NCBI GenBank assembly: GCA_014803575.1 | Contig: JAAVBO010000006.1 | Coordinates: 42,679 to 82,256 of the forward strand | Origin: a bacterium | Lineage (GTDB): Bacteria > Pseudomonadota > Alphaproteobacteria > Rs-D84 > CACZYB01 | DNA: 39,578 nucleotides | Reading direction: 5' to 3' | Part shown: positions 19,948 to 24,210 of the stretch, piece after piece | Layout: each line of letters starts with the position of its first letter | Position numbering within the stretch: the stretch's first letter is position 1 | The notes under the pieces: model-generated | Seen by the model: only the letters and a program-made list of their open reading frames with translations | Told to the model about the DNA's origin: nothing | Database searches by the model: none | Position numbers and translations under genes: made by a program

Positions 19948-19963
19948 ACACAAAATATAGTTT
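19948..19963 (+). promoter_or_regulatory. NrdR-like box 1
   Basis: ACACAAAATATAGTTT matches consensus ACACWATATATWGTGT at 14/16. Confidence 0.75.
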
Positions 19964-19990
19964 GCTAAGTTAAAAAAAATACTATATATT
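19962..19990 (+). promoter_or_regulatory. Candidate sigma70 promoter of nrdD overlapped by the NrdR-like boxes
   Basis: TTGCTA-N17-TATATT. Confidence 0.5.
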
Positions 19991-19994
19991 GTTT
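19979..19994 (+). promoter_or_regulatory. NrdR-like box 2
   Basis: ATACTATATATTGTTT matches ACACWATATATWGTGT at 14/16; starts 31 bp after box 1 (about three helical turns). Confidence 0.75.
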
Positions 19995-20046: not shown

Positions 20047-22098
20047 GTGAGTAATCAAGAAAATGAAAAAATTATAAATTTAACCCCTTTAAAAAAGTTA
20101 AATATTAAACAAATTGTAAAAAGAAACGGGGAAGTTGTTGATTTTGATATAGAAAAGATTCATAATGCCATAAAACTTGCCGGCGAAGCAACAATTCCCT
20201 TCTCTCCCGATGAATTAGTAAAACTTACTAATAATGTAATAAAAGTTTTAAATCACAAATATGATGGCAATCAAGCCGTGTTCATTGAAAAAGTTCAAGA
20301 TATTGTTGAACAAGTTTTGATTGATGCAAATTATTATGAAACTGCAAAGGCTTATATATTATATAGAGAAAAAAGAGCGCAAAGTCGCGAATCCGAAAAA
20401 ATTAAAATTGATGTTGAAAAATCAATCAGTGAATATTTAAACCAACTTGATTGGCGTGTAAATGAAAATGCGAATCAGGGCTACTCTCTTGGTGGTATGA
20501 TTTTAAATATTTCTGGTAAAGTTGTTGCAAACTACTGGCTTTCATATATATATCCAAAGGAAATAGGTGAAGCACACAGAAATGGTGATTTTCATATCCA
20601 CGATTTAAGTATGCTTTCCGGATATTGTGCAGGTTGGTCGCTTCGTGCATTACTTGAAGAAGGTTTTAACGGTGTTTCCGGCCATGTTGAATCTATCGCA
20701 CCAAAGCATTTATCTTCTGCTGTTGGTCAAATGGTAAACTTTATGGGTACACTTCAAAACGAATGGGCTGGTGCACAGGCTTTCTCATCAGTTGATACCT
20801 ATCTTGCACCATTCGTTCGTCTTGATAATATGAGCTATAAGGAAGTAAAACAAAAAATCCAAGAACTTATTTACAACCTTAATGTTCCAAGCCGTTGGGG
20901 AACACAAACTCCGTTTACTAACTTTACATTTGATTGGGTATGTCCAAAGGATTTGGCTCCGCAACATCCAAAAATCGGCGGTAAAGAAATAGAAGAATTT
21001 ACTTACGGCGATCTTCAAAAAGAAATGGATATGATTAACAAAGCTTATATTGAAGTTATGACTCAAGGTGATGCGATGGGTCGTCCATTCACATTCCCAA
21101 TTCCGACATATAACATTACAAATGATTTTATATGGGAAGGTGAAAACGCTGATTTGCTTTTTGAAATGACTGCAAAATACGGACTTCCATACTTCCAAAA
21201 CTTTATGAATTCAGATTTAAAGCCTACTGATGTTCGCTCTATGTGTTGCAGACTTAGACTTGATGTTCGTGAACTTTTAAAACGAGGAAACGGGCTTTTC
21301 GGTTCTGCGGAACAAACCGGTTCAATCGGTGTTGTGACAATTAACTGTGCAAGACTAGGTTATAATTTTAAGGGTAATTTGGAGGGATTGTATTATCAAC
21401 TTGATAAACTTATGGAACTTGCAAAAACAAGTTTGGAAATCAAAAGAAAGACAATTCAAAAACTTATTGATGGTGGACTTTACCCATATACAAAAAGATA
21501 TTTGGGAACACTTCGCAACCACTTTGCGACAATAGGTGTGAACGGTATCAATGAAATGATTCGTAACTTTACAAATGACGAATATGACATTACCGATATG
21601 CGTGGTCAAAAAATGGCTTCTGACTTCCTTGATCACATTCGTGAAAAAATGGTTGAATTCCAAGAAGAAACCGGCAACCTTTATAATTTAGAGGCAACTC
21701 CGGCAGAAGGAACAACCTATCGTTTTGCAAAGGAAGATGCAAAGGTATTTTCAGATATAATCCAAGCAGGAAAGAAGGATGCTCCATACTATACAAATTC
21801 TTCACAAGTTCCTGTCGGATATACGGATGATCCGTTTGAAGTTTTGGATATTCAAGACGCCCTTCAAACAAAATATACTGGTGGAACAGTACTTCACCTT
21901 TATATGGCAGAAAGAATATCAGATGCTGATACGGCAAAGAAAATTATAAAAAGGGTATTTGAAAATTATCATGTTCCATATATTACAATAACACCGACAT
22001 TTTCAATTTGCCCTAAACACGGATATATCGCAGGTGAACACGAATATTGTCCTATCTGTGATGAAGAAATCATATCAAAAGAAAAAGCAATTGCTTAG
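20047..22098 (+). CDS. nrdD: Anaerobic (class III) ribonucleoside-triphosphate reductase large chain lacking the C-terminal glycyl-radical segment; likely GTG start at 20047
   Basis: N-terminal ATP-cone (KQIVKRNGEVVDFDIEKIHNAIKLAGE), GDFHIHDLSMLSGYCAGW, SRWGTQTPFTNFTFDWVCP, GSIGVVTINCARLGY, TPTFSICPKHGYIAGEHEYCPICD Zn site; ends 14 aa after CPIC. AGGAG at 20036 is 6 nt before the GTG. Confidence 0.95.
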   Translation: MSNQENEKIINLTPLKKLNIKQIVKRNGEVVDFDIEKIHNAIKLAGEATIPFSPDELVKLTNNVIKVLNHKYDGNQAVFIEKVQDIVEQVLIDANYYETAKAYILYREKRAQSRESEKIKIDVEKSISEYLNQLDWRVNENANQGYSLGGMILNISGKVVANYWLSYIYPKEIGEAHRNGDFHIHDLSMLSGYCAGWSLRALLEEGFNGVSGHVESIAPKHLSSAVGQMVNFMGTLQNEWAGAQAFSSVDTYLAPFVRLDNMSYKEVKQKIQELIYNLNVPSRWGTQTPFTNFTFDWVCPKDLAPQHPKIGGKEIEEFTYGDLQKEMDMINKAYIEVMTQGDAMGRPFTFPIPTYNITNDFIWEGENADLLFEMTAKYGLPYFQNFMNSDLKPTDVRSMCCRLRLDVRELLKRGNGLFGSAEQTGSIGVVTINCARLGYNFKGNLEGLYYQLDKLMELAKTSLEIKRKTIQKLIDGGLYPYTKRYLGTLRNHFATIGVNGINEMIRNFTNDEYDITDMRGQKMASDFLDHIREKMVEFQEETGNLYNLEATPAEGTTYRFAKEDAKVFSDIIQAGKKDAPYYTNSSQVPVGYTDDPFEVLDIQDALQTKYTGGTVLHLYMAERISDADTAKKIIKRVFENYHVPYITITPTFSICPKHGYIAGEHEYCPICDEEIISKEKAIA

Positions 22099-22108
22099 CA
22101 TTTTGATG

Positions 22109-22137
22109 TTGATAAAAAGAGAAAAAACTGATATAAT
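22109..22137 (+). promoter_or_regulatory. Near-consensus sigma70 promoter for the 66-aa glycyl-radical ORF
   Basis: TTGATA (22109-22114), 17-nt spacer, TATAAT (22132-22137). Confidence 0.7.
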
Positions 22138-22166
22138 AAAATAAAAAAATAAAAAGGAGGAGAAAA

Positions 22167-22367
22167 ATGAAAACATTTGAAAAAGAACTTGATAACAGCA
22201 AAAGAACTAAATGTGAAATTTGGACACGTGCTATGGGATATTGCCGTCCAGTTCAAAATTTCAACAAGGGTAAAAAATCAGAATTTTATGAAAGAAAATA
22301 TTTCACAGAATCTGCAACAATGGAATCTATGAATTGCAACTGTGTTTATGATAAAAAAATTGCATAA
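22167..22367 (+). CDS. Stand-alone glycyl-radical domain of class III ribonucleotide reductase (66 aa)
   Basis: MKTFEKELDNSKRTKCEIWTRAMGYCRPVQNFNKGKKSEFYERKYF; contains the (R)xxGY glycyl-radical motif typical of NrdD C-termini; AGGAGG at 22155-22160. Confidence 0.88.
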   Translation: MKTFEKELDNSKRTKCEIWTRAMGYCRPVQNFNKGKKSEFYERKYFTESATMESMNCNCVYDKKIA

Positions 22368-22386
22368 TTTATATTAAAAAAAACTA

Positions 22387-22420
22387 AAATCCCCTTTAAT
22401 AAGAAGGGGATTTTTTATTT
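22387..22420 (+). terminator. Rho-independent terminator after the glycyl-radical ORF
   Basis: AAATCCCCTTTAATAAGAAGGGGATTTTTTATTT. Confidence 0.85.
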
Positions 22421-23246: not shown

Positions 23247-24210
23247 ATGAAAAATAACAATAAACACCCTATGGGGGGGGGTAAATAATACTGTAAATTC
23301 AAAGGTTTATAATAAATTCCTCAAATATTCTTTAATTGCCTTGATGATTGGAATGTCAACAAATAATGTTGATGCAAGACCAATTAAAAAAAGAGCTTCC
23401 TCTTTAAATAGTGTATCTGCAAATTCAGATACTTCAACATCAACAGACAATTCTGTTCAACAAGATACGGCATATATTAAAAAATCATTTTTTAAATATG
23501 AAAACTACGACTTGAATGTTGGAAGTAGTATTGAAATGAAAGATTTAGTTTATGAATCTGCTTATGATGATTTTAAAAACGAAATGGTATGTTTTAATCT
23601 TGAGACCTCTAGTGGAATTACAATAGAAGGAGGAACTGTTATTAATCCAAAACCAACAGAATTGGCATCGTTTGAATGTTTTAAAAATCCAGAAAGAATT
23701 GTTATAGATTCTAAAGCTTATGCAATAAACAACAGCTTTTATATTTTGACAACTGAATTTAATGAATCACAAAACAAATATGACTGGACAGATACTATAG
23801 ATATAAACTTAAAAAAAACACCTAAGCCAGATGAAACTTTTATTTCTATCACAAAAGAATCCTATGAAAATATGATAAAAAGTTGCAAAGATATAGATAT
23901 TGATACATTGAAAAATATTAAAAATCTTCTTACCGCATCTACAGTTACCTCTGGAATAAGTGCAGTTGGTGGTATTGCTAATACTGTTATGGGTGGTGTC
24001 AGTATTGCAAATGATAACAGTAAAGAGGACAAGAGTGATACCAACAAAAAACTTGATATAGCAACTACTATAGTATCCGGTGTGACTACTGCGACATCGG
24101 GGGCTTCTACTGCTACAAGTGCTGTTGCTATAAGCAAAGTTAATACTGTAATCGATAAAGTAAATGAATGTAAAAAAGCTATTAATAATCTTGTAATGAA
24201 AATAGATTAA
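23247..24210 (+). pseudogene. Predicted secreted protein, currently out of frame at a G9 tract (possible phase-variable gene rather than a dead one)
   Basis: ATG at 23247 (SD AGAAAGGA) reads MKNNNKHPMGGGK-stop. Shifting frame at G9 (23273-23281) gives MKNNNKHPMGGGVNNTVNSKVYNKFLKYSLIALMIGMSTNNVDARPIKKRASS..., joining a signal peptide to the 23341-24210 ORF. Confidence 0.75.
23273..23281 (+). repeat. Homopolymeric G9 tract
   Basis: CCCTATGGGGGGGGGTAAATAA; the only G/C run of this length noticed in an AT-rich window. Confidence 0.95.

Follow-up and report, generated by a model that had tools for sequence, protein, structure and literature searches.

The proteins closest to the enzyme analyzed here are the fused class III NrdD of the NF006126/PRK08270 type (for example those of the G116 group), which have the same barrel, an R-x-M-G-Y-x-R-P segment and an NrdG2-type activase. 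In the locus described below, by contrast, the glycyl segment is a separate chain of 66 aa with its own promoter. The same split, followed by the activase, appears on plasmid pSULKU01 of Sulfuricurvum kujiense (WP_013449873/WP_013449874), in Aquabacterium and on Paracoccus plasmids, where a large "ribonucleoside triphosphate reductase" is accompanied by a 58-64 aa "nrdD" or "hypothetical protein". These labels are pipeline annotation, we found no description of the pairs, and their genes are tight or overlapping with no internal promoter, unlike the case presented here. A small stand-alone protein with a glycyl radical site is also known in YfiD/GrcA, the spare part of pyruvate formate-lyase. 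However, GrcA is a member of PF01228 and the enzyme that it repairs carries a glycyl domain itself, while the small chain studied here matches the C-terminus of PF13597. The authors of the YfiD work expected spare parts for further glycyl radical enzymes (PMC8683613). One RNR polypeptide is also distributed over two genes in the class II NrdJa/NrdJb of Pseudomonas aeruginosa, but the class and the cut are different and no glycyl radical is involved (PMC9669993). Phage nrdD splits and the class II NrdJab were considered as prior descriptions of the split and set aside as different systems. In the openly accessible part of the literature we found no description of a separately encoded glycyl-radical subunit of a bacterial class III RNR. 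The promoter as such is ordinary, whereas the split enzyme with uncoupled control has, as far as we could find, no earlier description.

We have analyzed a window of 39,578 bp (the whole stretch of DNA examined) from a gut-type alphaproteobacterium. Its nrdD codes for a large chain that matches PF03477, PF13597 (positions 1-531 of 562, E 6.7e-179) and NF006126 (2-657 of 684). The profile matches end before the glycyl-radical segment, which this chain does not have, and the small ORF that follows picks up the family model at the very point where the large chain stops and completes it, with a PF13597 match that exceeds the cut-off (Table 1). Of the hallmarks of a class III RNR, the barrel with its finger-loop cysteine is found in the large chain and the glycyl segment only in the separate ORF. 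An NrdG2 activase is present at an unlinked location (TIGR02495 match at G000:C8:4823-5407). According to these profile matches, the two ORFs together make up a single class III RNR, with the glycyl-radical segment encoded as a protein apart. We found no class I or class II RNR in this genome or its genus, the split class III being the only RNR found, and no PFL-type glycyl domain (PF01228) in this genome or in ten relatives. Within assemblies of the genus that are 93-97% complete, these absences make the small gene, which is single copy in this genome, look essential here. As the large chain itself lacks a glycyl segment, the small protein would be obligatory for it, and for the same reason the small protein is not a GrcA, there being no such segment to replace. 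Its use as a spare part for pyruvate formate-lyase was discarded, as the genome has no PFL-type glycyl domain. Recoding or a frameshift joining the two ORFs was ruled out as well, since they are well apart in many relatives (gaps of up to 421 bp), in one the order is swapped (G047) and in two the genes are unlinked (G160 and G329).

Table 1. Features of the split nrdD locus (positions in the window)
Feature	Position	Strand	Details
NrdR box 1 (ACACAAAATATAGTTT)	19948-19963	+	2 mismatches to ACACWATATATWGTGT; conserved in genus
Putative nrdD promoter TTGCTA-N17-TATATT	19962-19990	+	9/12 match; both NrdR boxes overlap it
NrdR box 2 (ATACTATATATTGTTT)	19979-19994	+	2 mismatches; 15-bp spacer after box 1
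nrdD, large chain	20047-22098	+	GTG start; ATP-cone, class III barrel (MCCR finger loop), CxxH/CxxC motif
Gap holding the probable internal promoter	22099-22166	+	68 bp, between nrdD and the radical-subunit ORF
-35 element TTGATA	22109-22114	+	Hexamer match; same position in 5/6 genus members
Extended -10 TGA-TATAAT	22129-22137	+	TATAAT at 22132-22137; 17-bp spacer to -35
Shine-Dalgarno AGGAGG	22155-22160	+	-11.6 kcal/mol with anti-SD (nrdD, -8.7)
Glycyl-radical subunit, 66 aa (RAMGYCRP)	22167-22367	+	PF13597 530-562/562; NF006126 649-682/684
Codon of predicted radical Gly24	22236-22238	+	Conservation over 116 small proteins
Intrinsic terminator 3' of small gene	22386-22414	+	12-bp stem

The small chains are well conserved around the predicted radical site. 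Among 116 sequences, the glycine and the positions R+3, N+9, G+11, K+12, E+15, R+19 and F+22 are near-invariant, and a cysteine is found 8 residues (109 sequences) or 6 residues (6 sequences) ahead of the glycine. In the window this is Cys16 (codon 22212-22214). The near-invariant cysteine distinguishes the small chains from the fused NrdD of the G116 type, from which it is absent, and it is kept in the re-fused NrdD mentioned below. We suggest that it may help to keep the chains joined, possibly by way of the CxxH/CxxC knuckle that ends the large chain. As a separate observation, the C-terminal tails of 50 of the 116 small proteins have a CC/CxC/CxxC pair (NCNC at residues 56-59 in the window), which recalls the redox-active cysteines at the C-terminus of class I/II RNRs.

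The initial annotation had read a TTGATA-N17-TATAAT promoter (22109-22137) and an AGGAGG ribosome site in the gap between both genes, and its coordinates proved exact. The promoter scores 11/12 against the consensus and is of the sigma-70 type, with near-consensus hexamers, 17-bp spacing and a non-random match. The distance from the -10 to the ATG of the small gene (22167) is 29, within the range of 22-34 seen in most comparable gaps of the genome. The tandem NrdR-like boxes that had been described for the large chain were borne out, with a spacer that agrees with the 15-16 bp reported for NrdR sites (PMC12051234), and the gene for NrdR is found in the same genome (at G000:C8). In this respect nrdD resembles other members of the NrdR regulon, with tandem boxes and a 15-bp spacer. 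At this locus the boxes are found only upstream of nrdD. The gap, as had been stated, contains no recognizable NrdR box (the top match has 7 mismatches over 16 positions), and the promoter of the small gene would escape NrdR. It is also a better match than that of nrdD (11/12 against 9/12). No terminator was seen in the gap, and neither the gap nor the region upstream of nrdD gave an Rfam match to an RNA element. At the 3' end of the small gene, a hairpin with a T-run analogous to the one in the window is found in all six genus members. Very probably, the gap holds a genuine housekeeping-type promoter from which the glycyl-radical subunit (66 aa) of the split class III RNR is transcribed alone.

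This regulatory asymmetry would have consequences for the enzyme. As for transcription, that from the gap promoter would add to read-through from the NrdR-controlled promoter of nrdD, which would reach the small gene because no terminator lies between the genes. Under repression of nrdD by dATP-loaded NrdR, production of the small subunit and of the activase from the unlinked nrdG would continue. As for docking and radical chemistry, the activase NrdG would generate the radical at Gly24 in the small chain, and this chain, once docked in the large-chain barrel, would hand the radical to the finger-loop cysteine. The proposal that the radical subunit can be made independently is well supported by the separate chain with its own NrdR-free promoter and ribosome site. 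The additional claim about stoichiometry, that it is perhaps made in excess, fared less well. The small gene starts with ATG and nrdD with GTG, two promoters would serve the former and one the latter, and the Shine-Dalgarno of the small gene is equal to or stronger than that of nrdD, but this difference vanishes in two of the relatives (G002 and G005). Over-production of the small chain is only hinted at by these signals.

We have compared the gap in the genus, all the genomes compared being uncultured assemblies. A TTGnnn-N17-TATAAT is present at the same place in five of the six members (G000, which is the genome of the window, G004, G002, G005 and G001), the other four scoring 11, 10, 10 and 10 of 12, while identity at four-fold sites of nrdD among genus members is just 52-72%, the divergence surrounding the element being saturating. 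In the sixth (G003, with a NrdD 92% identical) a deletion takes away the -10, indicating that the gap promoter is dispensable. Among the linked split pairs that we examined, 86 in total, no other gap outside the genus scored at least 10 in the coding direction, and further genera of the family have no near-consensus promoter at this place.

The split itself is widespread, with more than 80 pairs across several phyla. Nearly all large-chain relatives in Alpha-, Beta- and Gammaproteobacteria, Coriobacteriia, Chlamydiae and Acidobacteria have the small ORF after them, and Campylobacterota and Paracoccus plasmids are likewise split. In one genome the gene order is reversed and the NrdR boxes are ahead of the small gene (G047), and in two the small gene is away from nrdD (G160 and G329), adjoining nrdG in the latter. 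Extra stand-alone copies were detected in four genomes, G147 (L148, C37), G130 (L142, C60), G340 (L143, C12) and G060 (L145/L146), that of G147 with its own TTGACG-N17-TACAGT, Shine-Dalgarno and terminator. An Allochromatium plasmid (L200) carries a small gene with no adjoining large chain, and some of the extra or stand-alone copies are on plasmids or plasmid-like contigs. Besides the set before nrdD, Atopobiaceae have further NrdR boxes in the gap that precedes the small gene. Six gaps have boxes with at most 3 mismatches against 0.15 expected (Coriobacteriia loci L019, L021, L022, L028, L063 and L076), with a period of 31 bp in three of the Atopobiaceae gaps and 32 bp in L021. Given these own promoters and boxes and the relocated copies, independent transcription of the radical subunit probably arose more than once, with and without NrdR. 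Re-fused NrdD were found in two alphaproteobacterial cases of the same family (L081/G213 and G310). A quick NrdD tree suggests that fused members are nested inside the split clade, the direction of change not being settled by it. In this tree, L169 and L172 are distant members of other NrdD subfamilies labelled as split only because the regular expression missed their glycyl motif. In one genome (G011, L114 6411-6761) nrdD is separated from the radical gene by an ORF of 116 aa with unknown function.

How special the promoter is has to be judged against the genome as a whole, for which we used 406 kb of stretches with genes from a simple purpose-made caller rather than a curated annotation. Among the 63 same-strand gaps of 45-120 bp, 10 score at least 11/12 on the coding strand and none on the reverse strand, with 0.23 expected from shuffles. 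At a score of at least 10 the numbers are 17, 3 and 2.5 respectively. Gap lengths have one peak at 0-20 bp and another at 60-70 bp, and a promoter scoring at least 10 is found in 4 of 8 gaps of 55-65 bp and in 6 of 18 gaps of 65-75 bp. The same sigma type is in use elsewhere in the genome, as indicated by the promoters of tRNA-Met (TTGACA-N17-TATTAT) and of the unlinked activase gene nrdG (TTGACT-N17-TATAAT). Promoters being routine in gaps of 60-80 bp, that of the small gene is itself ordinary and, as one among many, matters little alone. We would give an even chance to the explanation that it is real and serves no special purpose, a compact genome placing a minimal promoter in any same-strand gap of about 60-80 bp. 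The frequency of such gaps, the loss of the element in G003 and its absence outside the genus fit well with this. What speaks against it is the independent recurrence elsewhere of a separate promoter for the small gene, as in the NrdR boxes of Atopobiaceae, in G047 and in the unlinked or extra copies.

The initial annotation had suggested a purpose related to oxygen, with the radical subunit as a replaceable part. Oxygen would cleave the small chain at Gly24, a fresh chain would restore the enzyme and a surplus would be kept. This role would follow from the chemistry and from the YfiD/GrcA precedent with pyruvate formate-lyase (PMC8683613), and the stand-alone copies in relatives make the idea reasonable. 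The loss would be limited to a 66-aa chain, and the ATG start, strong Shine-Dalgarno and NrdR-free expression point in the same direction, as do the second stand-alone small genes in G147, G130, G340 and G060. In contrast, this genome has the small gene only once, we identified no oxygen-responsive element, no regulator of the Crp/Fnr family was found in the genus and the promoter is missing in G003. A promoter of a type common in the genome, and lost in one relative, does not have to reflect adaptation to damage by oxygen. We consider this explanation rather unlikely for the gap in the window. Somewhat less doubtful, though still tentative, is the broader reading that a widespread form of class III RNR consists of a stable barrel and a separately made, exchangeable radical subunit. 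Under this reading, expression of the radical subunit would have been separated from that of the barrel several times, by a promoter or NrdR boxes belonging to its gene or by unlinked or additional copies, and chains damaged by oxygen could be swapped while the costly barrel is kept.

It is improbable that the match is a by-product of AT-rich and purine-rich sequence, with read-through from the nrdD promoter as the sole transcription. Promoter-like sites over the 5.5-kb region are as frequent as in shuffles (31 against 31.8), so a bare consensus match tells little. However, the shuffled gap attains 11/12 with a frequency of only 0.0005 (0.05%), and this, together with the strand bias of 10 to 0 genome-wide and the conservation in five of six species, indicates with high probability that the promoter is real; the shuffles and the strand-biased enrichment rule out a chance origin. 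An oxygen-controlled promoter of the Fnr type is very improbable: TTGAT-GTTG-ATAAA (22103-22116) resembles TTGAT-N4-ATCAA, agreeing at 9 of the 10 bases of the half-sites in this genome, but the genus does not keep the second half-site. A search that detected all 14 controls gave no Crp/Fnr HTH protein in five genomes of the genus, which largely refutes control by Fnr/Crp.

Beyond the promoter, the split offers a naturally occurring two-component system, with which the installation of the radical on a 66-aa protein could be studied separately from its transfer to the barrel. If class III RNR can exchange its glycyl-radical chains, many gut anaerobes would have a cheap way to repair oxygen damage to their sole DNA-precursor enzyme, and the concept of "spare parts" would reach DNA synthesis. 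To our knowledge, such parts have so far been shown only for pyruvate formate-lyase. A different arrangement was seen in a faecal phage scaffold (L203, MT835493.1, 1503-3935), with a fused NrdD whose glycyl segment is followed by a glutaredoxin/thioredoxin-like tail (CPNC). Just downstream of the locus in the window, a run of about nine G (23273-23281) is found near an ORF start. Similar runs (G, or C on the other strand) are present at L115 246, L118 9032, L188 16363, L189 10128 and other places, often sharing the context CCCTATGGGGGGGGGTAAA..CTGTAAA(A)TCAA, with 17 runs of at least 7 in 406 kb of a genome of 33% GC. The pattern looks like a family of phase-variable genes, one of which is the gene just downstream of the locus.
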